Virus record (IMG/VR): IMGVR_UViG_3300030451_003486
Location: 1 to 34,272 of that record
Length of the DNA stretch: 34,272 nt
Source of the DNA: a virus
Reading direction: 5' to 3' (one strand)
Part shown: positions 2,760 to 27,276 of the stretch, in pieces
Numbering within the stretch: the stretch's first letter is position 1
How the letters are laid out: every line of letters starts with the position of its first letter
The notes under the pieces: model-generated
The model's database searches: none
Told to the model about the DNA's origin: nothing
The model's input: the letters and a program-made list of their open reading frames with translations, nothing else
Translations under genes and position numbers: made by a program

Positions 2760-2778
2760 TAAAATAATATTATATTTG
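2749..2778 (+). promoter_or_regulatory. Bacteroidetes-type promoter for the first early gene
   Basis: TTG at 2749-2751 and TATATTTG at 2771-2778 match the Bacteroidetes -33/-7 elements (TTG and TAnnTTTG) with a 19-base spacer. The start codon at 2783 lies only 5 bases past the -7 box, so the mRNA would have almost no leader. Confidence 0.7.
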
Positions 2779-5069: not shown

Positions 5070-5397
5070 TAGAAAAAAGATACCTGTTTTTACAGGAGTG
5101 TTAAATTATTTTCCTGATGCTATAAGAGAAGTGGCTAAAGTGTCTTATGCTGGTAATGAGCAACATCATCCAGGAGAACCTTTACATTGGGACAGAGCGA
5201 AGTCCACAGACGAGCTCGATGCTTTATCTAGACATCTTATACAAGCTGGTACAATTGATGATGATGGTATGAGGCATTCTGCTAAAGTAGCCTGGAGAGC
5301 TTTAGCTAATCTACAGAAAGAAATAGAGAATGATAATGATAAATGGTATAAAGAACAATACAATAGAAACAGAGATCCAAAAGACCATATAAAATGA
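5062..5397 (+). CDS. dATP/dGTP diphosphohydrolase N-terminal domain-like protein
   Basis: The 111-residue product shows GVLNYFPDAIREVAKVSYAG, then GEPLHWDRAKSTDELDALSR and DDDGMRHSAKVAWRALANLQ. These are hallmarks of the small phage family annotated as dATP/dGTP diphosphohydrolase N-terminal domain (formerly DUF5664). The His and Asp residues are well kept. The family name rests on association with nucleotide-pool enzymes; catalysis by this domain alone is uncertain. No PurZ-like or other 2-aminoadenine gene is present, so I do not infer a modified genome. It overlaps the sigma-like gene by 4 bases (ATGA). Confidence 0.75.
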   Translation: MSDRKKIPVFTGVLNYFPDAIREVAKVSYAGNEQHHPGEPLHWDRAKSTDELDALSRHLIQAGTIDDDGMRHSAKVAWRALANLQKEIENDNDKWYKEQYNRNRDPKDHIK

Positions 5398-5978
5398 TAT
5401 TAAAGCAACTAGCTAAAAGAAATAAAGAATGGTTGAAAGTTGCAAAGTCTATTTGCAGAGATGAAGATCTTGCAAAAGAAATGGTCCAAATAATGTATTT
5501 TAGAATGCTTAAATATATTAGTGATCCGTCAAGAATTATGGTTGACGGTAAGATAAACAAGATATATATTTATGTTACTCTGAGAAATATATTTTACAAA
5601 TTAAAGAACGACAAGAATAAAATTCAATTCTATGAATTTAAAGAGTTTGATACATTTGATGAGAATTTTGATACTTCTAAATATAGTACCGATTTAAGTT
5701 ATTCATTTGAAGATCAAATTGATGTTGAAAAAATGGAAGCTGCAAATGAAAAAATAATGAAGATGATTGAAGATGAAATAGAAACTTGGCACTGGTACGA
5801 TAAGAAACTTTTTAGACTATATTATTATACAGATTATAGTATGAGAGACATAGCAAAGAAAACAAATATATCTTTAACAAGTATATTTAATTCTTGTAAG
5901 AATTATAAACAAATTATAGCTGATAAGTTTGGAGAAGATATTATGGATTTCTTCAATAAAGATTACGATAAAATATAA
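5394..5978 (+). CDS. Sigma-70-like RNA polymerase sigma factor
   Basis: In this 194-residue protein, residues 10-45 (EWLKVAKSICRDEDLAKEMV followed by QIMYFRML) resemble sigma region 2 helices, and residues about 130-180 contain KLFRLYYYTDYSMRDIAKKT and NISLTSIFNSCKNYKQII, a region-4 helix-turn-helix. A polar acidic linker lies between. The layout is that of small ECF-type or phage sigma factors. It could direct host polymerase to late promoters; the two major late units here share a start element (14964 and 26905) unlike the early TAnnTTTG boxes. Regulation of those units is inference. Confidence 0.75.
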   Translation: MILKQLAKRNKEWLKVAKSICRDEDLAKEMVQIMYFRMLKYISDPSRIMVDGKINKIYIYVTLRNIFYKLKNDKNKIQFYEFKEFDTFDENFDTSKYSTDLSYSFEDQIDVEKMEAANEKIMKMIEDEIETWHWYDKKLFRLYYYTDYSMRDIAKKTNISLTSIFNSCKNYKQIIADKFGEDIMDFFNKDYDKI

Positions 5979-11809: not shown

Positions 11810-11875
11810 TTCTTAAACGCAGTGGGGTGCGCCTTCTTAAACGCAGTGGGTTGTTTCTCTTAAACGCAGTAGGGT
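11781..11875 (+). repeat. Repeat cluster 2: four copies of TTCTTAAACGCAGTGGGGT
   Basis: Copies begin (at TTAA) at 11784, 11813, 11837 and 11860, steps of 29, 24 and 23. Copies one and two share 19 bases exactly; copy three has GGG-TT and copy four GTAGGGT. All are in the plus orientation. The first is coding for the end of the previous gene; the rest lie between that gene and the promoter at 12001. Confidence 0.88.
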
Positions 11876-13410: not shown

Positions 13411-13441
13411 ACGCAATGGGCTTTCTTAAACGCAATGGGGT
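13407..13441 (+). repeat. Repeat cluster 3: two copies of TTAAACGCAATGGGGT
   Basis: Copies start at 13407 and 13426, a 19-base step. Both have CAATGGG where other clusters have CAGTGGG or CAGTAGG, so each cluster has its own variant. The first forms the stop of the gene before it. The bases between 13442 and 13513 hold no gene I can support. Confidence 0.82.
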
Positions 13442-14107: not shown

Positions 14108-14334
14108 TGAGCGAAACAAAAGAAATTAAAACTGTTAGAATAATGAACAAAGCGGAAAGCATCAAGCTTTGTGCTGTCGGCAGGGTTCAGGAAATACTAG
14201 AAAAAAGGGGCGTCAAAATGGACGTCCCGACTTTCAACATAGCTATGCAGGCGGCAGGCCACGCAATTGTTGAAATGGCAACAAGAGATTTATTGAAAAT
14301 AGATTTAAATAAATTATACGGATATGAAGATTAA
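14107..14334 (+). CDS. Small hypothetical protein (75 residues)
   Basis: A TAATG overlap favours ATG 14107 over the in-frame ATG at 14098. The product contains NKAESIKLCAVGRVQEILEK and VPTFNIAMQAAGHAIVEMAT, all predicted helices with a small-residue pattern that suggests a dimeric bundle. GC-rich codons (GCG, GGC, GAC) continue here. No family recognised. Confidence 0.6.
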   Translation: MSETKEIKTVRIMNKAESIKLCAVGRVQEILEKRGVKMDVPTFNIAMQAAGHAIVEMATRDLLKIDLNKLYGYED

Positions 14335-14434
14335 AGACAAACTAAATAAACTTTTAGACGATAATAGATTCATCGCCCTTGTTGTATATTTGGGCGCGTT
14401 CGCCTTCACTGTATTTTTTAGTATTGATTTTTAA
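14324..14434 (+). CDS. Small single-span membrane protein (36 residues)
   Basis: This frame overlaps the end of the previous gene by 11 bases. The product has a charged start (MKIKDKLNKLLDDNR) and a hydrophobic helix FIALVVYLGAFAFTVFFSI ending next to the C-terminus. Its size and single span resemble tiny phage membrane effectors or exclusion proteins; that role is speculative. A terminator follows 17 bases after the stop. Confidence 0.55.
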   Translation: MKIKDKLNKLLDDNRFIALVVYLGAFAFTVFFSIDF

Positions 14435-14450
14435 TAAATACGTGATAATA

Positions 14451-14479
14451 TTTAACCCTCTTATTTTTAGGGGGTTAAA
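14451..14479 (+). terminator. Terminator closing the accessory region
   Basis: TTTAACCC (14451-14458) pairs with GGGTTAAA (14472-14479), extended inward by a T-G and a C-G pair, with an A/T loop. A short TTTT follows at 14480-14483. Because both arms have T/A ends it could work on both strands. It separates the accessory cassettes from the late region. Confidence 0.65.
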
Positions 14480-14594
14480 TTTTACTCTTCCTGCTTCACC
14501 CTTCTCGGATATCATTTTAACAAAATCCGCCCTCTAATCTCACAAAAATGGCCTTAAAACGGGTCCAGATAGGACCATTCAACGTAAAACGGAT

Positions 14595-14735
14595 ATGTCT
14601 AGTGGTACTTTCCTACCTTTAATCAAATCAACCCAAAACGATATGAGTTGTTTAGCGATCGGATTAAGCACACCAATAAACATCAAAGAGTTGGACGCTG
14701 ATCTAGCGTCTAACGAAATACCTGTAATTATATAA
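14595..14735 (+). CDS. Possible small gene or gene remnant in the 14.4-15.0 kb gap
   Basis: An open frame of 46 codons starts MSSGTFLPLIKSTQNDMSCL and ends ADLASNEIPVII; the frame is open upstream to 14538 without another ATG. The residues look plausible for protein and the codons are unlike those of its neighbours, but there is no recognisable family and no junction with another gene. It may be a real small gene, a decayed remnant, or chance. Otherwise 14435-14978 (544 bases) holds only the terminator, inverted repeats and start element listed separately. Confidence 0.25.
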   Translation: MSSGTFLPLIKSTQNDMSCLAIGLSTPINIKELDADLASNEIPVII

Positions 14736-14817
14736 GGAAAAAATTAGATATAGTATGCCCGAGGCCACTCTATATATAATATATATCTATTTTTAAATCT
14801 GGTTTATTGTTGCTGTA

Positions 14818-14858
14818 GAGAATCTATTGACGTTCATCTGTATCAGATTCTCGTCAAT
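14818..14858 (+). other. Interlocking inverted repeats (pseudoknot or switch candidate)
   Basis: GAGAATCT (14818-14825) is the reverse complement of AGATTCTC (14845-14852), and ATTGACG (14826-14832) of CGTCAAT (14852-14858). The order is A-B-A'-B', so the two stems cross: either a pseudoknot or two exclusive hairpins. The arms share base 14852. A perfect 12-bp palindrome, TCTATATATAGA, follows at 14859-14870. All lie 120-160 bases before the first late gene. Confidence 0.5.
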
Positions 14859-14963
14859 TCTATATATAGATAATCATTTTTTTTTGACTTTGTTCCACTT
14901 TTTGAGGGGTAAAATATTAAAAGTTATTAACAGGCCAAACTGCTTGGTACAATAATATAATTA

Positions 14964-14975
14964 TTTGATTATCTA
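14964..14975 (+). promoter_or_regulatory. Late start element TTTGATTATCTA, copy 1
   Basis: TTTGATTATCTA stands exactly 3 bases before ATG 14979. The identical 12 bases occur exactly 3 bases before ATG 26920. Both are the first genes after a terminator. It does not fit the TAnnTTTG box. It may be a late promoter read by the phage sigma-like protein or a translation start signal. Confidence 0.6.
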
Positions 14976-14978
14976 ATT

Positions 14979-15689
14979 ATGAGTAAAACATATAAGTTAC
15001 AAGTCCCTGTTTCTTTAGATGATATAACGATAAGTCAATACCAAAAATACATAAAGGTATTAGAAGACAATAAAGATTCAGAAGACACTAATTTCTTAAA
15101 CTTAAAGCTCTTGAATATCTTTTGTGATATTACAATGAAAGAGGCTTATGAGTTGCCAATCCAGGAGTTTGAATATATATTAAATCACCTGGCGACTATT
15201 CTATCAGAAAAACCATTTTTACATCACAGGTTTTTTATGGAAGATCCAAAAGGAGATACAATTGAATTTGGCTTTATACCAAATTTAGATAAAATCACTC
15301 TAGGTGAATATGTAGATGCAGAAAACTATTTATCTAACTGGGAAGATATGCATAAAGCTATGTCGGTCCTTTATAGACCGATCATAGCGGGTAATAAGGA
15401 TTTTTATAAAATAGAAAAATATGAAGGAAGTGATAAGTATTCTGAAATTATGAAAGATGCTCCAGCTTCTGTTGCATTAGGCACTATCCTTTTTTTTTTG
15501 AATTTAGGGATAGACTTGTCGAAAATTACAATGGACTCTTTACTCAAACAGCAGGAGACATTGAAAGAGGATCCTACACACAAGGATTCAGTAAAAAGTG
15601 GGGATGGTATCAATCAATATACTCACTTAGTAAAGGAAATGTCTTCAAAATTGACGAAGCTACAAAACTCAATGTACATAAAGCAATGA
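14979..15689 (+). CDS. Tail assembly chaperone (zero-frame product)
   Basis: The 236-residue product starts MSKTYKLQVPVSLDDITISQ and has FGFIPNLDKITLGEYVDAEN and MSVLYRPIIAGNKDFYKIEK, features of an unnamed flavobacterial phage family encoded ahead of the tail genes. After residue 170 it crosses a run of ten T (15490-15499; codons CTT TTT TTT TTG) and continues to TGA 15687-15689. Overlapping this end, the -1 frame is open for 87 codons to the next gene's start. Position before tail genes, the 0/-1 pair and the T TTT TTT slippery heptamer match the lambda G/GT type of tail assembly chaperone. Chaperone identity is inferred mainly from this architecture. Confidence 0.75.
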   Translation: MSKTYKLQVPVSLDDITISQYQKYIKVLEDNKDSEDTNFLNLKLLNIFCDITMKEAYELPIQEFEYILNHLATILSEKPFLHHRFFMEDPKGDTIEFGFIPNLDKITLGEYVDAENYLSNWEDMHKAMSVLYRPIIAGNKDFYKIEKYEGSDKYSEIMKDAPASVALGTILFFLNLGIDLSKITMDSLLKQQETLKEDPTHKDSVKSGDGINQYTHLVKEMSSKLTKLQNSMYIKQ

Positions 15690-15757
15690 TGTGGTTAGAA
15701 TTTGAAAAAGAGAAAAACGATTTAGAAGCAAGATTAATTAAACAAGCTCACAGATGA
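15497..15757 (+). CDS. Minus-1 frame extension of the tail assembly chaperone
   Basis: This open segment has no start codon at its beginning and would be reached by a -1 shift on T TTT TTT (15491-15497). It adds 86 residues to the first 173, giving about 259 in total. It contains FSKKWGWYQSIYSLSKGNVF and ATKLNVHKAMMWLEFEKEKN, the kWGWyxxiyxLxxgxxxkidxvtxl pattern I associate with T-domain extensions of flavobacterial phage chaperones. The stop overlaps the next start (ATGA at 15754-15757), as for real genes in this operon. An error in the T-run (eleven T) would give the same fused product without recoding. Confidence 0.72.
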   Translation, partial: FEFRDRLVENYNGLFTQTAGDIERGSYTQGFSKKWGWYQSIYSLSKGNVFKIDEATKLNVHKAMMWLEFEKEKNDLEARLIKQAHR

Positions 15758-16215
15758 TAGCAGTATACGAAACACTAGACAAAATAAAAAATCTACTTAG
15801 AGAAAATCCGTCAACTCAAACAGTGACGTTTGGAGATCTGATGGAAGTAGACCTAGCTAAAACAACTATATTTCCATTAGCACACGTGCAAATAGGGAAC
15901 GTAACATTTAGAGATCATATAATTGTTATGGAAGTTGCGGTTCTATTTTTAGATATAGTAGACGACAACAGAGAAACAAATTCTTTTGATCAATTTTATG
16001 ATAACGATAATCTTATTGACATCTTAAACACTCAGCTATCTGCAGCTAATATTTTACAAGGCAAACTTAGAAGAGGCGCAGCATACAATGAGTTATTTCA
16101 AGTCCAAGGAGATATATCTGCTCAACCGTTCTTAGATAGATTTGAAAATCAATTAGCAGGATGGGGAGTAGATTTAGTAATTGAATTACCTAATAAAACT
16201 ACAAGCGTTTGTTAA
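15754..16215 (+). CDS. Minor structural protein (tail completion/terminator candidate)
   Basis: The 153-residue protein begins MIAVYETLDKIKNLLRENPS and has FPLAHVQIGNVTFRDHIIVM and FENQLAGWGVDLVIELPNKT; the GWGxDxxIxLPN ending is typical of a structural protein in flavobacterial siphophages, in a strand-rich fold like tail terminators. It lies between the chaperone and a gp10-like protein, where tail completion proteins are expected. The exact role is inferred from order. Confidence 0.68.
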   Translation: MIAVYETLDKIKNLLRENPSTQTVTFGDLMEVDLAKTTIFPLAHVQIGNVTFRDHIIVMEVAVLFLDIVDDNRETNSFDQFYDNDNLIDILNTQLSAANILQGKLRRGAAYNELFQVQGDISAQPFLDRFENQLAGWGVDLVIELPNKTTSVC

Positions 16216-16713
16216 ATGGCAGTAAACCTAGAACCTATATTAGATAAATTAGCAGATGATCTCATAGAACAAATGAGAATAGAGATAATGCAAAAATATC
16301 CTCATCCTGCAAAAGCAAGCGGAAGACTACTCGATTCTTTCAGCAAAGAGGTGACTGACAATAAACTTACAATATTAAATGAAGCTTCAGAGTCAGGTTA
16401 TTTTTATTCTGGTAATGTAGACTTAGGTAGAAGACCTGGTCAAATGCCACCTGTAAGTAAAATAAGACAATGGATGGAGAGAAAAGGAATTACAAGTAGA
16501 GATAGCAAAACAGGTCGATTTATGAGAAAAAGAGATGGAGCTTTTGCTATAGCTAAAAAAATAGCAGACTATGGATACCACGGAATAAATTATACAGAAA
16601 ACGCAGTCAGAAAATTTGAAAGCTATATTATAGATTCATTAGGAGAAAAATATGTAGAAGAATTAAACGAGATGTTAAAACAAAATATATCAAGATTTGA
16701 ATTAAACGATTAA
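16216..16713 (+). CDS. HK97 gp10-like head-tail or tail completion protein
   Basis: In this 165-residue protein, NVDLGRRPGQMPPVSKIRQW (residues 72-91) and MERKGITSR are close to gp10-type motifs (GRxPGxMPPxxxIxxWMxxKGI), followed by AFAIAKKIADYGYHGI. Such proteins help join head and tail or finish the tail. The C-terminal helix is extended. It follows the previous stop directly and is 4 bases before the next gene. Confidence 0.75.
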   Translation: MAVNLEPILDKLADDLIEQMRIEIMQKYPHPAKASGRLLDSFSKEVTDNKLTILNEASESGYFYSGNVDLGRRPGQMPPVSKIRQWMERKGITSRDSKTGRFMRKRDGAFAIAKKIADYGYHGINYTENAVRKFESYIIDSLGEKYVEELNEMLKQNISRFELND

Positions 16714-16717
16714 AAAT

Positions 16718-18508
16718 ATGCCAGCATTTTATACACCACAATTAGCAAGAAGTCCAATATTTTATAAAGCTGCTGCCGCATTAGCAGAAAAATTTACATA
16801 CAGTATTTATATATATACAGGACACTATACAACAAATAAACCATCGACAGCAACTTACACAATCACAAAAGATAAAGTTGCAGATGTAGTTGAAGTTGGA
16901 ACAATAACAAGTAAAACAGCAAATAAGCTTGTTGATTCAGTTAAACTGTTTAGCGAAACGGTTGAAGCTGGAGACTTAGTATATAATACTACAGGTAACA
17001 CAATAGCTATAGTAAGCTCAGTAGATAGTGATACTCAATTAACTTTAGATACAGACATATTTCCTGTTTCTGGAAACTTAGATTCTTATAAAATATTTAG
17101 TAAAACGTCAGCATCTATAGAGATCGCTGAACTTATAAGGGATTATTTTAAAACTGAATATTACAACTTAGCCGTAGACGCAGTATGGGTAGAGATAGAT
17201 ACAACAGTACAAATAACGTCTGGAACAACAACATCAGCAACAACTAACAAATTAGTTGATACTGATAATAATTTCATCAGAAAGTTATTACCGTCTTCTT
17301 TTACATTAACTGCAAACAATACTACGGATGCTACGTCAGCAACTGTTTCAGCAGTTGATGATGATAATACTTTATCTGTATCTAGTGATATTTTTGCGTC
17401 AGGAGAAACCTACACAATAAATATGTCAGCTACGGCTAGTAACGGAACTCCCTGGATTACTTTAGATGGATATGGGTTTTTTAAAGATGGTTTAAATCCT
17501 GGTAATACAATACTTGCTCAAAAGCAAGTCTTAATGACTAACTCTAAAATATACTTTATTAAAGGTAAAGATATTGTAATACCAGTTTATGCTCCTTTGC
17601 AATCTACACTCAGTTTCAATATATCAGGATCTTCTACAGTTTTTTGGAATGCTGTAGATAATTTCTGGAACACTTATTCTCAAAGCTGGGGTACAATAGT
17701 AGATCCTATAAAAATTACAGATGGTGATGTTAAAGATTCTGGAACTGCAGATGGAACAACAACTAACAAATTAGTAGATGGATCTGTAGGTAAAAGTTTT
17801 ACTACTACAGTAAAAGTAGGTATGACGGTATATAACACAACCGACAGCACGTTTACAAACGTGACTGCGGTTGATAGTGACACTCAATTAACTTTAGCAG
17901 ATGATATAATGGTTTCAGGAGAAAGTTATCAAATACAAGACGGAAGATCTGCAGACAAAATTCAATACGTAGTCATATCTCAAACTAATAATTTTACAGG
18001 AGGTACAATTACAGTTACAGACGGAACAGGACAATCCTTAACAAGAACGTTGACTCTAGAAGAGTCCAGGTGTTCTAAGTATACTGCATATAAAGTTATA
18101 TTCTATAACAGATTTGGTGCACTGCAAGAAATATTATTTACTAGAAAATCTACTAAAACATTAGAAACAAACTTCGATGAATATAAAAGAAGCACAGTTA
18201 ATTTTAATTTAGCTAGTTTTTCTTATGATAAATATAAAGCTCAAAAACAAAGAATAGATATTCAAGGAACAGAAACCCTTACATTAAATACAGATTTCTT
18301 AGAAGAGGGTATTTCTGATCCTATACAAGAATTATTAATGAGTGAGCAAATATGGGTAGATGAAGGTATTTTAAATACAGAAGCTTCAATTCATCCAGTA
18401 ATTATAAGAAGTACGTCTGTAGAAAAGAAAACAAATGTAAATAATAAATTAGTTAGCTATACAATAGAATTTGAATTTGCTAACGATAAAATACAAAATA
18501 TCAGATAA
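16718..18508 (+). CDS. Large structural (tail) protein with three internal repeats
   Basis: The 596-residue protein starts MPAFYTPQLARSPIFYKAAA and has IYIYTGHYTTNKPSTATYTI and IEIAELIRDYFKTEYYN, a framework I know from flavobacterial phages, followed by a beta-rich C-terminal domain with SADKIQYVVISQTNNF. Three similar 65-70-residue modules occur at 61-128, 169-234 and 342-407, each with TxNKLVD, then VDSDTQLTL or a variant, then DIF or DIM and a final SGxxY. Without them it would be near 400 residues. The modules look like inserted beta sandwiches or barrels displayed on the virion. It overlaps the next gene by one base. Confidence 0.75.
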   Translation: MPAFYTPQLARSPIFYKAAAALAEKFTYSIYIYTGHYTTNKPSTATYTITKDKVADVVEVGTITSKTANKLVDSVKLFSETVEAGDLVYNTTGNTIAIVSSVDSDTQLTLDTDIFPVSGNLDSYKIFSKTSASIEIAELIRDYFKTEYYNLAVDAVWVEIDTTVQITSGTTTSATTNKLVDTDNNFIRKLLPSSFTLTANNTTDATSATVSAVDDDNTLSVSSDIFASGETYTINMSATASNGTPWITLDGYGFFKDGLNPGNTILAQKQVLMTNSKIYFIKGKDIVIPVYAPLQSTLSFNISGSSTVFWNAVDNFWNTYSQSWGTIVDPIKITDGDVKDSGTADGTTTNKLVDGSVGKSFTTTVKVGMTVYNTTDSTFTNVTAVDSDTQLTLADDIMVSGESYQIQDGRSADKIQYVVISQTNNFTGGTITVTDGTGQSLTRTLTLEESRCSKYTAYKVIFYNRFGALQEILFTRKSTKTLETNFDEYKRSTVNFNLASFSYDKYKAQKQRIDIQGTETLTLNTDFLEEGISDPIQELLMSEQIWVDEGILNTEASIHPVIIRSTSVEKKTNVNNKLVSYTIEFEFANDKIQNIR

Positions 18509-20598
18509 TGTTTGTAATTGAATTATTCATACAAGATAATGACGGTTCTGATGTCAGAATGGATATGTTTAAAGATGAGTCTGTGTCTATAACACAGACC
18601 ATCCAAGACGTTAGAGATATAGGCAGTGTATTTACAGACTTTACAAGAACATTCAGCTTACCTGCTTCTAAAACAAACAATAAAGTATTTAAACATTATT
18701 ATAACTCAGATGTAGTTAGTTCTAGTAATAATTTGTTAAGTGACTTTGATGCAAGAAAAAGAAGATCTGCTAGAATAGAATTAAATCATACTCCTTACAA
18801 AAAAGGTAAAATAAGATTAGATGGAGTGAATATGAGAGATGGTAAACCTTATACTTATAGGGTTACATTTTTTGGTGAGACTATTAACTTGATCAGCTTA
18901 ATGGCAGATGATAAATTAAGCTCACTAGATCTATCTTCTTTTGATACAACTTATACAGCAACTCAACTAAAATCAAAGCTTGTAAATGCTGTTTCTGATT
19001 TGATAGTTCCTTTAATTACTCATACAAGAAGATTAGTATATGATTCAGGATCTACTACTTATGACGGAATTGTAGATAATTTAGGAAAACAACCTAGCTC
19101 AGGAACTGATAACAAAGGATTACTTTTAACTGAATTAAAATATGCTCTTAGGGTGCATAAAATAGTTGAAGCAATACAAACAAAATATGATCTAACATTT
19201 TCAGATGATTTCTTTAACACAACAAATACACCATATTATAATTTATTTATGTGGTTACACAGAAAGTCTGGTGATGTTGGTTCTGATTCTCAAGTATCAG
19301 AACCTTTTATCAAGCAAATAAAAACATTTCAAACAGGAACATTTAATGCTGGATCAGGATATGACAGTTCTATTGTATCAAACGGAACAACATTGACTGT
19401 AGAAGGAGACGATAATCTTAACTTTCAAATACAAGTTGTTCCTTCAGACAGTTCAATAACATATAAGATAGACGCTTTTTTAGGCGGTAATTTAGAATAT
19501 AGCACGTCAGGAACAGGAACTCAAACTTTAGATATGGTAGGATTATTTAGTCCTAGTGTTGTTGGAGAAGGTGACTACACTTTCAATGTTAGTACAACTT
19601 CATCTTCACCTTTATCAGTATCTGGTACAGTTACTATGACTGTTGAAGGTGGTATTTCTTTACCTGAAACAACTTACAGCTTAACATTTAGTTCTACTTC
19701 AATTTCAGCTAACCCTCCGTTCAATATATCTACAGAAATACCTGAAATAAAAAATATAGATTTTTTAACAGGGTTATTTAAAATGTTTAATCTAACTGCT
19801 TTTGTAGAGGACGATGGAACAATTAAAATACAAACTTTAGATTCTTTTTATGCTGCAGGTGTAGATTATGACATAACAGATTACATAGATATAAATGAAT
19901 CTCAGATAGATTCTGCTTTACCCTATAAAGAAGTTGATTTTAGATATCAAGGAAGAGATTCTTTCTTTTCTATAACACACGAAAAGATATTTGGTTTAGA
20001 ATGGGGTACAGATGAATTTTTAACGGTAGATCCAGACGGAAGTGTTTATAAAGTAGAAGCACCTTTTGAACATCATAAGTTCCAAAGATTATTAGATCTA
20101 AATGATACATCTGGAGATACATCTACTAAAATTCAATGGGGCTGGTCTGCAAATGAAAATCAAGAACCTTATATTGGTAGGCCTTTATTGTTTTACCCTA
20201 TAAGAGTAACTTCAGGAGAAGAAATATATTTCAGAGAGTCTACAGGATCTTCAGGAAGCAACACAAGTTATATTGTTCCTTCTAATTCTGTAGAATTAAA
20301 TAATACTTCTCAAAGTATAAACTTTAGTGCTGAATTTAATGAGTATGAGGTTGCTCCTCCTAAAGTATCTACAAACGGATTATTTAAAACTTATTATAAT
20401 AAATATATAAGTGATGTATTTGATGCTAAAAATAGACTTACTAAGGTTACAGCATTTTTGCCACCTGAAGTTTTATTGAACTTCACGTTGGCTGATAGAT
20501 TTATTATCAATCAGAAAAGTTATAAGATAAACTCAATAACTACTGATATGTATAATGGTAAAAGTGAAATAGAATTATTAAATGACTTCGATGCTTAA
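18508..20598 (+). CDS. Tail tip or baseplate structural protein
   Basis: The 696-residue protein starts MFVIELFIQDNDGSDVRMDM and continues DVRDIGSVFTDFTRTFSLPA, LNHTPYKKGKIRLDGVNMRD and YTYRVTFFGETINLISLM; the C-terminus has VLLNFTLADRFIINQKSYKI. This set (RxxxxLPAxxxN, KGKIRLxxV, FFGxxxxL) marks a family of large flavobacterial phage proteins encoded just before the tape measure. The middle (residues about 280-400) is Ser/Thr/Gly-rich beta, perhaps an inserted host-binding module. Baseplate role is inferred from gene order. Confidence 0.72.
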   Translation: MFVIELFIQDNDGSDVRMDMFKDESVSITQTIQDVRDIGSVFTDFTRTFSLPASKTNNKVFKHYYNSDVVSSSNNLLSDFDARKRRSARIELNHTPYKKGKIRLDGVNMRDGKPYTYRVTFFGETINLISLMADDKLSSLDLSSFDTTYTATQLKSKLVNAVSDLIVPLITHTRRLVYDSGSTTYDGIVDNLGKQPSSGTDNKGLLLTELKYALRVHKIVEAIQTKYDLTFSDDFFNTTNTPYYNLFMWLHRKSGDVGSDSQVSEPFIKQIKTFQTGTFNAGSGYDSSIVSNGTTLTVEGDDNLNFQIQVVPSDSSITYKIDAFLGGNLEYSTSGTGTQTLDMVGLFSPSVVGEGDYTFNVSTTSSSPLSVSGTVTMTVEGGISLPETTYSLTFSSTSISANPPFNISTEIPEIKNIDFLTGLFKMFNLTAFVEDDGTIKIQTLDSFYAAGVDYDITDYIDINESQIDSALPYKEVDFRYQGRDSFFSITHEKIFGLEWGTDEFLTVDPDGSVYKVEAPFEHHKFQRLLDLNDTSGDTSTKIQWGWSANENQEPYIGRPLLFYPIRVTSGEEIYFRESTGSSGSNTSYIVPSNSVELNNTSQSINFSAEFNEYEVAPPKVSTNGLFKTYYNKYISDVFDAKNRLTKVTAFLPPEVLLNFTLADRFIINQKSYKINSITTDMYNGKSEIELLNDFDA

Positions 20599-20734
20599 AC
20601 ATATATTAGACTTATTAAAACTAAATGATTATAACGGAATATCTCCGTATATCGATATAGCTAAGGGTAAATACGAAGCTCCTAGCAACTTAAAAGAAGC
20701 AATAAACAAAACAAAACGATTTAAAAATGGCTAG
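20591..20734 (+). CDS. Small protein between tail tip and tape measure
   Basis: A 47-residue frame starts 8 bases inside the preceding gene and ends 8 bases into the tape-measure gene. The product begins MLKHILDLLKLNDYNGISPY and contains LAKGKYEAPSNLKEAI-like sequence (here IAKGKYEAPSNLKEAI) and KTKRFKNG. Short proteins with IAKGKYEAPxNLKEAI are, as I recall, found at this place in related phages. It is too short for usual gene callers. Role unknown. Confidence 0.65.
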   Translation: MLKHILDLLKLNDYNGISPYIDIAKGKYEAPSNLKEAINKTKRFKNG

Positions 20735-22898
20735 ACAAAAAATAGAAGTAGAAATTAAAATAGTTGGAACACAAGCTCAAGTCAAAATAAAACAACTTGA
20801 CGATGCTTTCAGAGATGCAGCTACAGGAGCTGATTTAATGAATGAAGCTATTGATCGTGGCAGTAAATTATTAAAAGGTAGTGTTGGAGACTTAAGAAGA
20901 CAAATAAGAGCATTAGAATTAGTAAGAGACAATACGGCAAAAACAACTAAACAGTTCTTTGAACAAGATAAACAAATACAAGTATTAAGAAATAGAGTTT
21001 CTGAGATAACTGATACGAACTCAAAATTTGCTAAAGTAAATCAAGATTTAATATCTTCTTCTGGTTTAGCTGGCGCTACTTTAACAGAACTTGGTAGAAC
21101 TATATCAGATATGCCTTATGGTATACGAGGTGTAACAAACAACTTATCTCAGTTATCTACTTTGATGGTTACATTAATGGCTAAAACTGGAGGAACTACA
21201 AAAGCTTTTCAATTATTAGGAGCTCAATTAAGAGGACCTTTAGGTCTTATTTTAGCATTCCAGGCGGTTATAGCTGCCATTGATTTTTTCTTTGGTTCTA
21301 CTAAAAAAGCAGAAGAAGCAACAGATGATTTTACAGACTCATTAAATATAAATCTAGAAGTTACAAGAATATATTTAGAAGCATTAGAAAACACAAATGA
21401 TTCTTTAGAGGAAAGGTCAAAACTTTTACGTGGCGCATCTACAAGGCACAGTGCACTTAAAAAGATACTAGCAGATGAAACTTTAACCCAGGAACAAAGA
21501 ACTGAAAAAGCTCAGAAGTTTTTAGATCTTGAGTTTTCTAGACTTTCTTTGAATGATGAGATGTTGTCTCAACAAAAACATTTATTTGATGCTGAAGCAA
21601 ATTTATCAGAACAAAAATCAAAACTAAATGATTTAAAACAGCAAGAGTCAAAGCTTAATAAAGAAGTAATTGAAGATGGTGGACTTCAAAGTGAATTAAA
21701 CGAAAGAATAGAAGCGCAAACCATACAATTAACAAATGCTGAAAAAGAGTTTAATGATACTAGACACGTTTTTCTTGAGTTGTCTAACCAATTAGCTATT
21801 GTAGAAAAACAGCAAGTTGAATTAACTAAGCAAGTTAAAAAAGCAAAAGACGATGAAACAAAAAGTCAGCTTGATTTAAATGCTGCGATTTTTGAAGGAT
21901 TAAACTTTTACACTAAATATAATGAACTTCAAGAAAGACAGAGAGATATTCAAAAAGTTAGAAGAAATATAGAAATAGCTAACATTAAAAAAATATTAGC
22001 TCAAGATATATTAGGATTAAAAGAAAGATCTACATCAAGAGAGCAATTTGAAAAAGACAAAGAAAAGTTAATTGATAAAGCTATACAAAAAGAAATAGAC
22101 TCTATAGAAATAGCTTTAAAAGTAGATACGTTAAGTGTATTGGAAAGAGAAAAGCTTTACGAAAGACTTTATAAATTAAAAGCTTCTTTAATAGATTTAG
22201 ATGGTGATGCTGCAAAAGGTCTCGACAAGGTCATTAACGCTGCTAAAAAAGCAGCAGAGTTTTTAAAATTTGGCATAGATTCTATTACCGCTCAAATAGA
22301 CGCAGAAATATCTCAAGAAGAAAGAAAGACTATGCTTGTTAATAATGAATTAAAAAAGAGAATTATTAATGAGAAGTTAACTGCAGACCAAAAAGAAGCT
22401 ATAAACAACCAGATAGAAAAAAACGAAGTTGCTTTACAAGAAAAAAGAGATAAGCTAGCAGAGAAAGCATTTAAAACTCAAAAAGCCTTATCTATAACTT
22501 CAGCCTTAATAGGCACTGCTGAAATGGCTATAGATGCTTTTGGTACTATTAAAGGTATGAAGTTCTTAGGTCCTGCAGCATTGCCTTTAGCAATAGCTGC
22601 GGCAGCAACAGCAACCGCATTTGGATTAAAACAAGTTGATGCAATAAGAAAAACTCAATTTGTTCCTAGTGCAGCTCCTGGATCAACTAGAGTTTCTGGA
22701 CTAGGTGGAGCAGGTGGTACTGGAGGCGGAATACAAGATCCTACATTCAACATAGTCGGTACAGGTCAACAATTCCAATTATCTCAAGCAATTGCACAAA
22801 GAACTGGAGAGCCTGTTAAAGCTTATGTTGTAACAGGAGATGTAAGATCTGGATTAGCTCTTGAACGTAATATAATTAAAGGTTCTAAGCTAGGATAA
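20727..22898 (+). CDS. Tail tape measure protein
   Basis: The 723-residue protein is mostly long helices with many Lys, Glu and Gln. Hydrophobic segments lie near residues 165-190 (GPLGLILAFQAVIAAIDFFF) and 618-637 (ALPLAIAAAATATAFGLKQV), and a Gly-rich C-terminus follows. It begins MARQKIEVEIKIVGTQAQVK and has ISDMPYGIRGVTNNLSQLST, common in tape measures of flavobacterial phages. Its length sets tail length; at about 1.5 angstrom per residue the tail would be roughly 110 nm. Order (after chaperone and tail proteins) agrees. Confidence 0.88.
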   Translation: MARQKIEVEIKIVGTQAQVKIKQLDDAFRDAATGADLMNEAIDRGSKLLKGSVGDLRRQIRALELVRDNTAKTTKQFFEQDKQIQVLRNRVSEITDTNSKFAKVNQDLISSSGLAGATLTELGRTISDMPYGIRGVTNNLSQLSTLMVTLMAKTGGTTKAFQLLGAQLRGPLGLILAFQAVIAAIDFFFGSTKKAEEATDDFTDSLNINLEVTRIYLEALENTNDSLEERSKLLRGASTRHSALKKILADETLTQEQRTEKAQKFLDLEFSRLSLNDEMLSQQKHLFDAEANLSEQKSKLNDLKQQESKLNKEVIEDGGLQSELNERIEAQTIQLTNAEKEFNDTRHVFLELSNQLAIVEKQQVELTKQVKKAKDDETKSQLDLNAAIFEGLNFYTKYNELQERQRDIQKVRRNIEIANIKKILAQDILGLKERSTSREQFEKDKEKLIDKAIQKEIDSIEIALKVDTLSVLEREKLYERLYKLKASLIDLDGDAAKGLDKVINAAKKAAEFLKFGIDSITAQIDAEISQEERKTMLVNNELKKRIINEKLTADQKEAINNQIEKNEVALQEKRDKLAEKAFKTQKALSITSALIGTAEMAIDAFGTIKGMKFLGPAALPLAIAAAATATAFGLKQVDAIRKTQFVPSAAPGSTRVSGLGGAGGTGGGIQDPTFNIVGTGQQFQLSQAIAQRTGEPVKAYVVTGDVRSGLALERNIIKGSKLG

Positions 22899-22936
22899 GA
22901 AACAAAACAAATTAACTAAAAAAAGATTTACTTATT

Positions 22937-24484
22937 ATGGAAGAAATAAAACTTGTCGAATTAGTTATAGACGAAGATAGCGACTTTGCAGGAATACAAG
23001 CAATTTCTATTGTAGATGAACCTGCAATAGAAGAGGATTTTGTTGCACTTGCATCACACGAAATAAAACTTGCTGAAGTTGATAAAGAAAAGAAGATCTT
23101 AATGGGAGCAGCTTTGATTCCTAACAAAAAGATATATAGATCAAATGGAGAAGAGGAATATTATATCTATTTCAGTGAAGATACCGTCAAAAAAGCCTCA
23201 GAGCTTTTTTTGACTAAAGGAAATCAAAATAATTCTACTCTAGAACACGAAATTGAACTTAATGGGCTTTCTGTTGTAGAATCTTGGATTGTAGAAGATG
23301 AAAAACAAGATAAATCGAGAAAATACGGTTTTAACGTACCTGTAGGAACCTGGATGGTGTCTATGAAGGTAAATAATGATGAAATTTGGGATAATTACGT
23401 AAAAACAGGTAAAGTAAAAGGTTTTTCTATTGAAGGTCACTTTGTAGATGCAATAAAAGAAGATAAAAAAGAGCAAGAAGCACTTTCTTTATTAGAAGAA
23501 CTTACAGATGTTTTGGATGTTGAACTTGAAACGTATGGAGACTATGGAAGCGGTGTTAGAAACAATGCTAAAAGAGGTATTGAACTCAATAAGAAGGTCA
23601 ATAATAAGTGTGCGACAAGTGTAGGTAAGATTCGAGCTCAACAATTAGCTAGAGGAGAAAAATTATCAGTTGGAACAATAAAAAGAATGTATTCTTATTT
23701 GTCTAGGGCTGAAACATACTATGATCCAGGTGATTCTAAAGCTTGCGGTACTATTTCATACTTATTATGGGGTGGAAAAGCAGGTTTAAACTGGTCAAGA
23801 GGTAAATTAAAAGAGTTAGGAGAGTTGAAATTAAAATCTATGGTTATAGATGAAGAATTTGCTATCATAGATGATAGATTAGCTTTCTCTAGTAAAGAAG
23901 CTGCAGAAAAAGCAGCTTTAGATCTTGGTTGTAAAGGATCACACGAACACGATTACGAAGGTAAGATTTGGTATATGCCTTGTGAAAAACATTCATTAAA
24001 AGATTCTTGTCCTAAAGGATTTGTAAAGAAAAATGGCAAATGTATAAAAAAGACAGATAATTATGCAGAAGTTGGACCAAGAGGAGGAGTAAGAAAAAGT
24101 CCTAAAGCACCTAAGTCAGACACACCTAATAAAAATCCAAAAGGTAAAGGAACTGCTAAAGGAGACGCATCTGGCAAAACAGGAGCTAAAGTTTCTGCAA
24201 AAGACAGAGCTTCTTTACAGAAAAAAGCTGATGATTTCAATAAAAGATATAAAGAGAAATTAGGTTACGGTGTTACAGTAGGAATGCTAGCTTCTGTATT
24301 TCAAAGAGGACTAGGAGCATTCAATACAAGTCATTCTCCTAATGTAAAATCAGCTTCACAGTGGGCACACGCGAGAGTCAACGCTTTTATGTACTTGGTA
24401 AGAAATGGAAGACCACAAAATGCCAAGTATACAACTGACTATGATATATTACCCGCTAAACATCCTAAAAGCTCTAAGAAATGA
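22937..24484 (+). CDS. Prohead protease (XkdF/S78_2-like) fused to further domains
   Basis: The 515-residue protein has several parts. Residues 1-172 are an XkdF-like protease domain: FAGIQAISIVDEPAIEEDFV, STLEHEIE (H104), VESWIVEDEKQDKS, PVGTWMVSMKV and GFSIEGHF (S164). Residues 205-290 have the AKRGIEL...VGKIRAQQLARG...TIKRMYSYLSRAE...LLWGGKAGLNW block seen with phage proteases. Residues 310-372 contain GCKGSHEHDYEGKIWYMPCE and more Cys. Residues 376-515 form the DUF5824-like region, with VSAKDRASLQKKADDFNKRY and FQRGLGAFNTSHSP. It lies before scaffold and capsid genes. The tail domains may be cleaved off or act as an internal scaffold. Confidence 0.85.
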   Translation: MEEIKLVELVIDEDSDFAGIQAISIVDEPAIEEDFVALASHEIKLAEVDKEKKILMGAALIPNKKIYRSNGEEEYYIYFSEDTVKKASELFLTKGNQNNSTLEHEIELNGLSVVESWIVEDEKQDKSRKYGFNVPVGTWMVSMKVNNDEIWDNYVKTGKVKGFSIEGHFVDAIKEDKKEQEALSLLEELTDVLDVELETYGDYGSGVRNNAKRGIELNKKVNNKCATSVGKIRAQQLARGEKLSVGTIKRMYSYLSRAETYYDPGDSKACGTISYLLWGGKAGLNWSRGKLKELGELKLKSMVIDEEFAIIDDRLAFSSKEAAEKAALDLGCKGSHEHDYEGKIWYMPCEKHSLKDSCPKGFVKKNGKCIKKTDNYAEVGPRGGVRKSPKAPKSDTPNKNPKGKGTAKGDASGKTGAKVSAKDRASLQKKADDFNKRYKEKLGYGVTVGMLASVFQRGLGAFNTSHSPNVKSASQWAHARVNAFMYLVRNGRPQNAKYTTDYDILPAKHPKSSKK

Positions 24485-24618
24485 ACAAAAAGAAACTAAC
24501 AGTAAGTAGAACCAGTCCGCGTTCCTCAAGACGCGGCTGCTTATGTGCAGATGGTAAAAGATATTCAAGAAAATGTTGTAAAGGTTATTTGATCAATCAA
24601 GGTATTGGTAAGATCTGA
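24481..24618 (+). CDS. Small cysteine-rich protein (45 residues)
   Basis: The frame starts in an ATGA overlap with the protease gene. The product begins MNKKKLTVSRTSPRSSRRGC and continues LCADGKRYSRKCCKGYLINQ, then GIGKI. The pattern GCLCxDGxYSxxCCxGxLxxQGIG is found, as I recall, in many flavobacterial phages beside capsid genes, always as a short unnamed protein. Four cysteines could bind zinc. It may be a minor head component. Confidence 0.75.
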   Translation: MNKKKLTVSRTSPRSSRRGCLCADGKRYSRKCCKGYLINQGIGKI

Positions 24619-24668
24619 AAATACAACAGACAGATAAATAATTAATTAACTATATATATTTTATTATT

Positions 24669-25187
24669 ATGAAAGCAAGCGAAATCGTAGAAAAATTCAA
24701 AAACGTTCTTTTGAATGCTGACGAAGAGCAAGTACAACCTGAAGCGGAAATGAAAGAAGAGTCTGACATTGAAGTTAAAGAGGAAGAAGTTGTTTTAAGT
24801 GAGCAAAAAGAAGAAGTAAAAGAAAGCGAAGAAACAACTGAACTTTCTGAAGAAGTCGAAGCTGGTTACCACGACAAAGATGGCAAAGAAATGGAAGAAA
24901 TGCCTAAGCCAAAAGAATCAGACTTTGTGACTAAGGAAGAGCTAGCAAAAGCGATTGCTGAAGTAAAAGCAATGGTTTCTAAACTATCTCAAGAAGAAGA
25001 AGCTTTAGAAGTTCCACAAGAACTAGAAGCTGAAGAAAAACAAGAATTATCTGCTCAAGAGCCAGAGGTTGAGCCAATTAAACATAGCCCTGAATCTGAA
25101 GTAGGTAAAAAACAAGAGTTTCTATATGCTCAAAAAAGAAATATGAGCACTAGAGACGTTGTATTTAACAAAATATCAAACTTTTAA
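24669..25187 (+). CDS. Acidic scaffold-like protein
   Basis: The 172-residue product is extremely rich in Glu (for example EEVKESEETTELSEEVEAGY) with Lys, few aromatic residues and helix-forming stretches such as EELAKAIAEVKAMVSKLSQE. Just before the major capsid gene this is the profile of a scaffolding protein or of the delta domain that is removed in maturation. The C-terminus (EFLYAQKRNMSTRDVVFNKI) turns basic and could bind the capsid protein. No enzyme motif. Confidence 0.72.
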   Translation: MKASEIVEKFKNVLLNADEEQVQPEAEMKEESDIEVKEEEVVLSEQKEEVKESEETTELSEEVEAGYHDKDGKEMEEMPKPKESDFVTKEELAKAIAEVKAMVSKLSQEEEALEVPQELEAEEKQELSAQEPEVEPIKHSPESEVGKKQEFLYAQKRNMSTRDVVFNKISNF

Positions 25188-25199
25188 TATTAAATAATT

Positions 25200-26147
25200 A
25201 TGGCTACTACTACAAGTATAACTACTACTTACGCAGGCGAATTTAGTGGCAAGTATATATCTGCTGCTCTATTATCGTCTCCGACAATCGAAAATGGAAA
25301 CATTGAGATTAAACCAAACATTAAGTACAAAGAAGTAATCAAGAAAGTTGCAACTGACGCTAACGTAATAAAAGACGCTACTTGTGATTTTACAGATACT
25401 GCTACTGTTACTTTAACTGAAAGAGTCCTACAACCAGAAGAGTTTCAAGTGAACTTAGAACTTTGTAAAAAAGATTTTATTTCTGACTGGGAAGCTATTC
25501 AGATGGGATATTCTGCATATTCAAATATGCCTCCAAAATTCTCTGATTTCTTAATCGGACACGTTGCAGGTTTAGTTGCAGAAAAGAATGAGCAAAACAT
25601 CTGGGGAGGTGTAAACGGAAACGCAGGAGAATTTGACGGATTCACAGTATTAATGGCTGCTGATTCAGATGTAAATGACGCTGCTAACGGTTCTGAAACT
25701 TCTTTTTCAAGCTCAAATATTGTAACACTTTTAGGAAACGTTGTAGACGCACTTCCTTCTAAAGTTTATGGTAAAGAAGATTTAAAAATTTATGTTCCAA
25801 CTGCTGCTTGGCAATCGTACATCAGACATTTAGGCGGATATGCTGCTAATGGTGTTGGTGCTGCAGGTTTTGAAAGCAGAGGTAATCAATGGTACAATCA
25901 AGGCAACTCACTATCATTTGATGGTATTGAGCTAGTATTAGCTCCAGGTATGCCTTCAGATCATATCGTTGCTGGACAAAAATCTAACTTATACTTCGGT
26001 ACAGGATTAATCTCTGACCATAATGAAGTAAAAGTATTAGATATGGCTGATCTTGATGGATCTCAAAATGTAAGAGTAATTATGAGGTTTACAAGTGGCG
26101 TTCAATATGGGATTGGAAGTGATCTAGCATTACTTACTTTAGCATAA
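25200..26147 (+). CDS. Major capsid protein (HK97-fold candidate)
   Basis: The 315-residue protein has AGEFSGKYISAALLSSPTIE, a helix with SDWEAIQMGYSA, FLIGHVAGLVAEKNEQNIWG, then VVDALPSKVYGKEDLKIYVP and AGQKSNLYFGTGLISDHNEV. The order (N-arm, long helix, P-domain, AGQKSNLYFGT strand, final F-x-x-GVQYGIGSDLALL strand) fits flavobacterial phage major capsid proteins. A scaffold gene lies before it. Codons are regular and ATG 25200 follows a short A/T gap. A hairpin after the gene may stabilise its mRNA. Confidence 0.88.
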   Translation: MATTTSITTTYAGEFSGKYISAALLSSPTIENGNIEIKPNIKYKEVIKKVATDANVIKDATCDFTDTATVTLTERVLQPEEFQVNLELCKKDFISDWEAIQMGYSAYSNMPPKFSDFLIGHVAGLVAEKNEQNIWGGVNGNAGEFDGFTVLMAADSDVNDAANGSETSFSSSNIVTLLGNVVDALPSKVYGKEDLKIYVPTAAWQSYIRHLGGYAANGVGAAGFESRGNQWYNQGNSLSFDGIELVLAPGMPSDHIVAGQKSNLYFGTGLISDHNEVKVLDMADLDGSQNVRVIMRFTSGVQYGIGSDLALLTLA

Positions 26148-26165
26148 TAAATTATTGTATAATCG

Positions 26166-26186
26166 ATGGGCGGGTTTACCGCCCAT
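26166..26186 (+). terminator. Hairpin after the capsid gene (partial terminator or mRNA stabiliser)
   Basis: ATGGGCGG (26166-26173) and CCGCCCAT (26179-26186) form a perfect 8-bp stem with a GTTTA loop. No T-run follows, so full termination is unlikely. Such a stem would protect the abundant capsid message from 3' decay or lower expression of the next gene. Confidence 0.6.
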
Positions 26187-26205
26187 TAACTAAAACTATT
26201 ATAAT

Positions 26206-26835
26206 ATGAGTTGCGATTTATCACAAGGAAGACAAAGACCCTGTAAAGACTCAGTAGGTGGCTTGAAAGCAGTTTACTTCATTAATTATGGAGAAACTGA
26301 TTATAGCGTAGTAATGAACACAACTTCTGGTACAGAAGATAACATTGCTTCTATAGGAGCCGTAGGGTCTGTTTATAGATATGACTTAAAAGGCAACTCC
26401 AATTTAGAACAAACGATTGTATCTTCAACAGATACAGGAGGAACATTCTTCGAGCAAGTTCTAACATTGGTTTTACCTAAACTTACTGCAAAAGATCATA
26501 AACAAATTAAATTATTATCTTTTGGAAGACCTCACGTTATCATTAAAGATAACAACGATAATTATTTTCTTGCAGGTCTTGAGCACGGTATGGACGTGAC
26601 AGGAGGAACAGTTTCTTCTGGATCAGCGATGGGAGATTTAAGCGGATATACATTGACTTTAACAGGAACTGAAAGAACTCCTGCTAATTTCTGTGACATT
26701 GATTCTGAAACAGACACTTCATTAGTGTTTAATAATAATGGTGGTTCTACTGTTACTGCAACAGTAGTTCCTGGAGTTGCTACAGATGTTGATGTAGATG
26801 ACAATCAAGCTGGAATACCAGGAGGAGGAAATTAA
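26206..26835 (+). CDS. Structural protein, tail-tube or decoration type
   Basis: The 209-residue protein starts MSCDLSQGRQRPCKDSVGGL, then KAVYFINYGETDYSVV, YRYDLKGNSNLEQTI, GGTFFEQVLTLVLPKL, LSFGRPHVIIKDNNDNYFLA and MGDLSGYTLTLTGTE. Proteins with CxLxxGRxxxCKDxxGGxKxVYFxNY occur next to capsid genes in flavobacterial phages. The GxMxVTxGTxxxGxxxGDLSGYTLTLTG ending resembles tail tube proteins, while the position supports a head decoration protein; I cannot decide. The C-terminus is a Gly/Asp-rich tail. A strong terminator follows. Confidence 0.7.
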   Translation: MSCDLSQGRQRPCKDSVGGLKAVYFINYGETDYSVVMNTTSGTEDNIASIGAVGSVYRYDLKGNSNLEQTIVSSTDTGGTFFEQVLTLVLPKLTAKDHKQIKLLSFGRPHVIIKDNNDNYFLAGLEHGMDVTGGTVSSGSAMGDLSGYTLTLTGTERTPANFCDIDSETDTSLVFNNNGGSTVTATVVPGVATDVDVDDNQAGIPGGGN

Positions 26836-26853
26836 TGATTTCATAACCTTTGT

Positions 26854-26882
26854 AAAAAGCCTCGCATTAAGCGGGGCTTTTT
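26854..26882 (+). terminator. Strong terminator of the first late unit
   Basis: AAAAAGCCTCGC pairs with GCGGGGCTTTTT around ATTAA, a 12-bp stem with one T-G pair, followed by more T. The A-run on the left and T-run on the right make it work on both strands. It is the best terminator in the window and splits the late region in two. Confidence 0.9.
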
Positions 26883-26904
26883 TATTAAAACACTATTGTA
26901 CTTT

Positions 26905-26916
26905 TTTGATTATCTA
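26905..26916 (+). promoter_or_regulatory. Late start element TTTGATTATCTA, copy 2
   Basis: The 12 bases are identical to those at 14964-14975 and lie at the same distance from the ATG (26920). The unit begins 37 bases after the strong terminator, so it needs its own promoter. Confidence 0.6.
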
Positions 26917-26919
26917 TAT

Positions 26920-27276
26920 ATGATAGTATTACAGCCTATTACAACTTCTCAAACTTTACAGTTTGTTCCAAGATCCTATAAGGAAGATAGTTTGGTTCAA
27001 CTTGTAATTACAGAAGACGGTACAAGAAAAACAGAAACCTTAACAGGTTTAACTGCAACGTACACTGGTAACTTTATAAATTTACCTTGTACGTTTAGCA
27101 TATTATCAGAAGGTAAGTTATATTCTATTGAACTTACTAGGTCTGGTAATTTATTATATAGAGATAAAGTATATTGTACTTCTAAGACAAACAGAACAAT
27201 ACCTCATACAATTAATACAGGTAAGTATGATGAGCATACTGCATCTCCTACAGGACAAAAATACATAACAATTTAA
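26920..27276 (+). CDS. Structural protein upstream of portal
   Basis: From ATG 26920 the product has 118 residues and begins MIVLQPITTSQTLQFVPRSY; a TTG at 26896 is in frame but lies within the start element. The protein is all beta: SLVQLVITEDGTRKTETLTG, then FSILSEGKLYSIELTRSGNL, LLYRDKVYCTS and a tail ending GQKYITI. Similar small beta proteins (LxFIPR...YxDxxFCT) appear in flavobacterial phage structural regions. Its role is unknown; it may be a virion decoration. Confidence 0.7.
   Translation: MIVLQPITTSQTLQFVPRSYKEDSLVQLVITEDGTRKTETLTGLTATYTGNFINLPCTFSILSEGKLYSIELTRSGNLLYRDKVYCTSKTNRTIPHTINTGKYDEHTASPTGQKYITI

Follow-up and report, generated by a model that had tools for sequence, protein, structure and literature searches.

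The DNA analysed here (the window) is the IMG/VR virus record IMGVR_UViG_3300030451_003486, 34,272 bp long with a 99-bp terminal repeat. A terminase (8898), a portal (27278), an XkdF-type protease (22937), a tape-measure-like protein (20727) and an endosialidase-chaperone fibre (29105) identify it as a tailed phage. The closest named relatives are the Nonlabens phages P12024L/S (terminase 50%, portal 37%). Based on this kinship and on host-type TAnnTTTG boxes in the window, the host is probably a flavobacterium. We focus on the 12-mer TTTGATTATCTA, which precedes the first genes of two rightward, presumably late operons (14979 and 26920), and on gene 5394, which encodes a protein resembling sigma factors of the extracytoplasmic function (ECF) type. 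All features are collected in Table 1.

Exactly two copies of TTTGATTATCTA were found in the window, both on the plus strand and each 3 bp before an ATG, which confirms the first-pass annotation of this DNA. Allowing up to three mismatches, the window contains 128 matches compared to a shuffle mean of 121, so that it is the exact pair at gene starts that stands out. For a common 12-mer at equal offset among 50 starts we roughly expect ~3e-4, a value that assumes simple composition and is too low for AT-rich upstream DNA. The assignment of the 12-mer to two late operons was supported. Each gene had also been described as the first after a terminator; this holds for 26920, which lies 37 bp after a hairpin, and only loosely for 14979, where the nearest plus-strand terminator lies ~500 bp upstream. 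The hairpin before 26920 was not listed by our pattern scan, and we suspect that this is caused by pairing of its T-run with an A-run.

Two further features were absent from the first-pass annotation. Exactly 12 bp upstream of both 12-mer copies lies an ACA (14949-14951 and 26890-26892). The full sites read CTTGGTACAATAATATAATTATTTGATTATCTAATTATG (first site) and ATTAAAACACTATTGTACTTTTTTGATTATCTATATATG (second site) and share the layout (G/A)(G/A)(T/A)ACA, 16 bp, ATT, 8 bp, ATG. In addition, a third copy of this two-part element, with the exact ECF -35 letters, is found on the minus strand 8 bp before the predicted start of a small RNA at 14863. The element is therefore not confined to ATGs, as this copy heads a non-coding RNA.

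Table 1. Features of the late promoter system in the window.
Feature	Position	Strand	Details
-33 element, late promoter 1, TTGGTACA	14944..14951	+	kept in orthologues
12-mer TTTGATTATCTA, late promoter 1	14964..14975	+	core ATT 14968-14970, 8 bp to ATG; matrix rank 1 (training without window)
First gene of late operon 1	14979..15689	+	236 aa, function unknown (phrog_32199); A of ATG predicted as +1
-33 element, late promoter 2, TTAAAACA	26885..26892	+	
12-mer TTTGATTATCTA, late promoter 2	26905..26916	+	core ATT 26909-26911, 8 bp to ATG; matrix rank 4
First gene of late operon 2	26920..27276	+	118 aa, directly before portal gene 27278
Intrinsic terminator hairpin upstream of late promoter 2	26854..26882	+	-17.6 kcal/mol, z -4.2; gene 26920 starts 37 bp after
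Intrinsic terminator ending the preceding rightward operon	14450..14480	+	nearest plus-strand terminator before 14979
Third promoter copy, TGGAACA-N16-ATT-N8	14864..14897	-	elements 14897-14872; divergent from late promoter 1; no ATG follows
Predicted sigma-dependent small RNA	14738..14863	-	~120 nt; covarying 5' stem, 3' terminator hairpin; divergent from late operon 1
ECF-like sigma factor gene, candidate reader	5394..5978	+	194 aa
Host-type -7 box TATATTTG of early gene	2771..2778	+	4 nt before ATG 2783; contrast class

At first sight the two plus-strand sites could be variants of the ordinary host promoter (-33/-7, TAnnTTTG) without a dedicated sigma factor, as the 12-mer starts with TTTG and a TA is located 4 bp before it at both sites. 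However, TA-N4-TTTG misfits the host sigma-A consensus TAHHTTTG, and neither site carries this consensus at -12 to -5, in agreement with the earlier proposal that the 12-mer is unlike the host class. Moreover, TTTG is lost in relatives (TTTAG, TTGCG or TTTCCG), which keep ACA and TT, and host-type boxes elsewhere in this phage group stand at mixed distances from the ATG (3-5 nt in only 6/23 heads). We consider such host promoter variants very unlikely. The three window sites carry a -35 element of the GGAAC kind (GGTACA, AAAACA and GGAACA) and the -10 letters T-10 T-9 of ECF-type promoters, for which the spacer is near-constant at ~16-17 bp; it is 16 bp at all three sites. Position -11 is G or A, not always G. 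Judged from these letters and distances, the 12-mer is most likely the downstream (-10) half of a two-part ECF-type promoter, the exact letters of which are specific for this clade.

The spacing also predicts where transcription would start. In the open complex of Mycobacterium tuberculosis SigH, the -35 element GGAACA occupies -34 to -29 and the -10 element GTT -11 to -9, with a best spacer of 17 bp (PMC6411747). With GTT at these positions, GTT-N8-ATG places the A of the ATG at +1. Closest to this geometry is P12024L (AAACA, CGTT and a spacer of 17 bp at most heads), whereas the window clade has GATT and the window itself ATT with spacer 16. SigH differs in being a cellular stress sigma, and no tie between AUG and +1 is described in the available text (PMC6411747). 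Given the constant 8 bp from TT to ATG, we infer that the late mRNAs would begin at the AUG or a few bases away from it and thus have little or no leader; for some relatives, leaders of 1-10 nt are predicted. The earlier proposal of essentially leaderless late mRNAs with the 12-mer as -7 box is thus retained in its first part, while the box of the host kind is replaced by half of an ECF-type promoter. In the presumed hosts leaderless mRNAs are rare: they make up 5.5% in Flavobacterium psychrophilum (PMC9723704), and of the leaders predicted for F. johnsoniae, 87% are longer than 10 nt (PMC6847099).

Since the host sigma-A box TAnnTTTG lies at -12 to -5 (PMC6847099), early gene 2783 (TATATTTG-N4-ATG) also looks leaderless. 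A variant of the host box (TAnnTTnG), TATATTAG, is found 5 nt before ATG 2973 and 4 nt before ATG 13549, the latter internal to an open reading frame called from 13513, and some early mRNAs may therefore be leaderless too. We do not claim host-type boxes as a second leaderless class for early genes in general, as only the 6/23 heads mentioned above fit.

To follow the element in relatives, 41 loci encoding relatives of gene 14979 and 15 encoding relatives of the sigma-like protein were taken from viral contigs. Two of the 41 loci, L041 and L056 (partial), were excluded, leaving 39 starts, 30 of them distinct. The two-part element recurs upstream of gene-14979 orthologues and, independently, before gene-26920 orthologues, right after a terminator-like stretch. 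An element with an implied leader of 0-4 nt was present at 27/39 gene-14979 orthologue starts, 12 of the 39 having the form ACA-N15-17-(A/G)TT-N8-ATG. The 14 relatives of gene 26920 gave ten distinct upstream regions after removal of G012 (identical to the window over the element) and of G032, G035 and G038 (near-identical pairs). Eight of these ten have N8 and one (G034) has N7; the last (G011) fits only with a 10-nt leader. In the cultured Nonlabens phage P12024L, AAACA...CGTT-N8-ATG with core CGTTAATA precedes six operon heads with start codons at 179, 3031, 5412, 24771, 26011 and 27612, which were chosen by eye among 20 starts; the unselected count is five strict matches in 19 heads.

The first-pass annotation had proposed a search for the element in relatives that carry the sigma-like gene. 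Many of these lack the exact 12-mer, which has drifted to GATTTACTA, AGTTATATA, CGTTAATA, CGTTACTTT, GATTACTTT or GGTTACTTA at a nearly unchanged distance from the ATG, and it was the two-part element that proved to be conserved, except at 12/39 orthologue starts with ACG or AAA in place of ACA. As a marker in relatives the exact 12-mer was mostly uninformative. Together with its ATG (TTTGATTATCTANNNATG) it has at least 119 matches in viral contigs; among the matches listed, 14 have an upstream ACA in the right place, and all 14 precede a 118-codon frame like gene 26920. Many of the remaining TTTGATTATCTANNNATG matches belong to few near-identical families with long open frames, which we took for coding sequence, and peaks of ACA at offsets 16, 25 and 40 were ascribed to such repeated families. 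Elements, geometry and conservation are direct observations. Separately, contig 1 of G009 contains two extra high-scoring late-type sites, 21035 (-) and 28376 (-), with an ATG 8 nt after the core, and some relatives may thus carry more than two late-type promoters.

We then compared late operon heads with starts inside operons, a comparison that was framed after the window and its relatives had been seen, so that the figures are descriptive. An ACA 26-28 nt before the ATG was present at 31/35 late heads and 18/277 operon-internal starts, and both elements together at 26/35 and 4/277, respectively; (A/G)TT exactly 8 nt before the ATG was found at 25/35 late heads. The set of 35 heads omits L051, L052, L053, L055 and near-duplicates, all of which are included in the test of 39 starts. 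In 16 sigma-bearing genomes the strict pattern was found at 25/257 operon heads, compared to 8/432 other starts (Fisher p 8e-6). P12024L contributes five of the 25, and in the other genomes it is mostly the two known loci that match.

These counts also bear on the possibility that the 12-mer is a translation-initiation signal, recruiting the Bacteroidota ribosomes that work without Shine-Dalgarno sequences. The fixed distance between 12-mer and ATG would suit such a signal, and Bacteroidota use nucleotides before the AUG, above all adenine at -3 (PMC6847099). However, the 12-mer is paired with an element ~28-30 bp upstream of the ATG, both parts together occur at only 4 of the 277 operon-internal starts, which need translation as well, and the A at -3 is not constant across the late set. 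That the third copy heads a non-coding RNA and has no start codon after it likewise speaks for a promoter rather than a signal for translation, and we consider the latter very unlikely.

The strongest check of the promoter reading was a matrix search in which each genome's own group was excluded from training; the matrix did not include the ATG and was free to match both strands. A site of at least 13.5 bits was obtained in 9/11 genomes (all but G025 and G034), and in all nine the top site is non-coding and its core is followed by an ATG at a distance of exactly 8 nt. A matrix trained without the window ranked 14968(+) first, the minus-strand site 14874(-) second and 26909(+) fourth in the window, and only 14968(+) exceeded the best scores of six shuffled windows. 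As the training sequences were anchored on ACA and TT, the frequencies of these letters are inflated in the matrix used for the window scan, and we rely on the head counts, the group-excluded matrix and the test of 39 starts instead.

The minus-strand promoter together with the first bases of the small RNA was found in 15 stretches in viral contigs. In 13 of these, a rightward ACA-N-ATG late promoter is located just behind it (exceptions L252 and L255). The 12 distinct small RNAs are 115-126 nt long and have in common a GAGRAU/AUYCUC stem and, at the 3' end, a hairpin resembling a terminator. In their alignment 97% of the cells are paired compared to at most 62% when slid, and 17 cells are changed on both sides; this test is biased towards the structure, as the latter was derived from the same alignment. 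Covariation is also observed in the variable inner hairpin, which stays paired despite letter changes (AUCUG/CAGAU, AUCUC/GAGAU and AUCGC/GCGAU). Single-sequence folds of nine of the RNAs gave z values of -1.0 to -4.6. An Rfam search of 14000-15100 returned nothing convincing, with one chance-level match (E 0.82). A covariance model of the RNA had no match outside the clade of the window in 44 sources with default filters, and none in P12024L. Our guess is that the RNA has a late regulatory role.

As suggested in the first-pass annotation, the product of gene 5394 remains the best candidate reader of these promoters, and judged from its model it probably folds like ECF sigma factors. It matches UPF0122/YlxM in Pfam (26.3 bits, cut-off 22.7) and an RNA polymerase sigma factor family in PHROGs (4e-9); Sigma70_r2 was detected in 9/13 members of its family (E up to 0.1). 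An AlphaFold2 model built from 13 sequences has two helical domains (helices 2-79 and 111-185), in line, at modest confidence, with a sigma2 plus sigma4 architecture. Nearly all best-ranked Foldseek chains are ECF sigma factors, VIA gave Z ~8-10 to ECF sigmas, and the matches of both programs span both halves of the protein. The large rmsd over both domains is read as a different domain arrangement, as the single domains of the model align at ~2-3 Å. N55, Y58 and N65 show no or almost no variation across the family and, aligned by eye, would occupy the place of the SigH residues that read T-10 and T-9. By sequence, the protein matched no sigma factor in the PDB; weak matches to plant EDS1 were taken as chance.

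The sigma gene is present in 30/40 records, 11 of which were selected for it. Among the 29 records selected by gene 14979, 19 carry it, including all 13 longer than 21 kb, whereas the ten sigma-less records are all 20 kb or shorter (G019 at 20 kb, nine shorter), short enough to be fragments. Plain tblastn detected no homologue in named phages; the family profile was needed to detect P12024L gp35 (E 9.6e-12), which has a Pfam Sigma70_r2 match of 25.2 (cut-off 24) and a 'Sigma-70 region 2' note in GenBank. In cellular genomes, searched with two short patterns only, no homologue was confirmed. The sigma-like fold of the model and the co-occurrence are observed, and from these we infer that the 5394 protein reads the late promoters. 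The small protein encoded directly after the sigma gene (5982-6404, plus strand) contains cysteines in CxC and CxxC arrangement and matches nothing in Pfam; it could be a sigma partner or an anti-sigma factor.

Alternatively, the late promoters might depend on a sigma factor of the host, either of the ECF type or a modified housekeeping sigma, with the 5394 product acting otherwise, for example as anti-sigma or co-activator. Flavobacteria have several ECF sigmas (seven in F. psychrophilum), and CGT forms the -10 box of one host motif, SM6 (PMC9723704). Against this, the phage sigma gene accompanies the promoters in all 13 long relatives and, as a distant homologue, in P12024L. In addition, the most diverged sigmas (G027, G028 and G031; E 7e-11 to 1e-21) are found among the records with elements departing from ACA (L033, L035 and L039), as would a matched pair; we take this as a weak hint. 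Reading by a host sigma appears unlikely to us.

Several results weigh against the 5394 protein as reader of an AUG-fused promoter. Among gene-14979 orthologue starts, 12/39 lack the ACA form, 12/39 have N7 or N9 and 3/39 imply a leader of 2-4 nt. In G011 (the record of L013) the gene-26920 orthologue has the same geometry with a predicted 10-nt leader, AAGCAAACGA, a natural exception to AUG fusion. G011, G033 and G034 carry the sigma gene without a strict match at any head. Conversely, 1/79 heads matched in three flavophages without a detected sigma (Fisher p 0.014 compared to 25/257); these controls were RAP44, 11b and Harreka_1 only, and an empty profile search there is no proof of absence. 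In the window, with the ATG not counted, 26909 scores 14.7 bits and the minus-strand site 16.2 bits, both within the range of the best sites in the six shuffled windows (12.6-17.7). The best sigma-70 match of the 5394 product in Pfam stays under the cut-off (Sigma70_r4_2, 18.2 bits, cut-off 25.7), and confidence in its model is modest (pLDDT 67, pTM 0.50, best Foldseek E 4e-3). Finally, co-occurrence of sigma gene and promoters could reflect phylogeny rather than function.

Taken together, we consider it likely that TTTGATTATCTA forms the -10 part of an AUG-fused, ECF-type late promoter that is read by the 5394 sigma of the phage. In this model, host polymerase would read the host-type TAnnTTTG promoters early and make, among others, the 5394 sigma. 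On the host core polymerase, domain 4 of this sigma would bind GGTACA, AAAACA or GGAACA, and domain 2 would melt the DNA at (A/G)TT, 16 bp downstream of the -35-type element. Because of the fixed 8 bp between TT and ATG, transcription of both late operons would begin at the A of the AUG or at most 1-2 nt away from it, giving leaderless mRNAs. The same sigma would drive the third, divergent promoter for the ~120-nt structured RNA. In a wider sense, and only tentatively, a lineage of Bacteroidota phages may have fused sigma-dependent late promoters to start codons, such that a single sigma would change the specificity of the polymerase and also the way in which translation begins, the late operons starting as leaderless mRNAs in hosts that rarely use these. 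It would also add a new family of ~120-nt RNAs, divergent from late operon 1, to the late programme.

Parts of such a system are already known. In phiEco32 and 7-11, a phage ECF-type sigma steers host polymerase to a few promoters before structural genes, with early genes on host-type promoters (PMC4331800, PMC7881722). These are enterobacterial podophages, likened to the window by their description, and no leaderless geometry or divergent small RNA is described in the available sections of these reports. P12024L is a related phage with the same layout at six heads and its distant sigma homologue slightly upstream of terL, but it differs in its core and lacks a match to the small RNA model. 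Leaderless mRNAs are common in mycobacteria. The Corndog-type mycobacteriophage promoters PL1/PR2 are predicted to be divergent, with transcription starting (+1) at the first letter of the start codon (PMC4351075), in a mycobacterial host, unlike the presumed flavobacterial hosts of the window, which rarely use leaderless mRNAs (PMC9723704). Phage ECF sigmas with their own promoters and individual leaderless phage promoters are thus known; for the fusion to the AUG and for the small RNA, our searches revealed no precedent. In open-licence papers, to which our literature search was restricted, we found no mapped late promoter of a Bacteroidota phage and no report of sigma-read, AUG-fused late promoters in these phages.

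The 5394 sigma and its proposed sites offer a testable pair of reader and site for late transcription in Bacteroidota phages. Leaderless late mRNAs are predicted here in a phylum whose mRNAs lack Shine-Dalgarno sequences and whose hosts seldom use leaderless messages, which provides a compact setting for studying initiation by such ribosomes at leaderless AUGs and its possible exploitation by phages. The case also illustrates how phage-sigma promoters can come to light when the starts of two orthologous genes are compared across relatives, and an undescribed structured phage RNA is revealed as well.

Apart from the promoters, a 14-bp repeat, TTAAACGCARTRGG, is dispersed in the window, with all copies on the plus strand (9883, 10106-10163, 11784-11873 and 13407-13439). 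There are nine exact copies and one with two mismatches (10150); one copy lies inside terL and clusters follow after it. At up to two mismatches the window has 13 matches compared to 0.8 expected. The repeat is present in 23/259 fetched loci, in many of which the first two copies are spaced by 223 bp, and the repeats are candidate packaging or replication sites.

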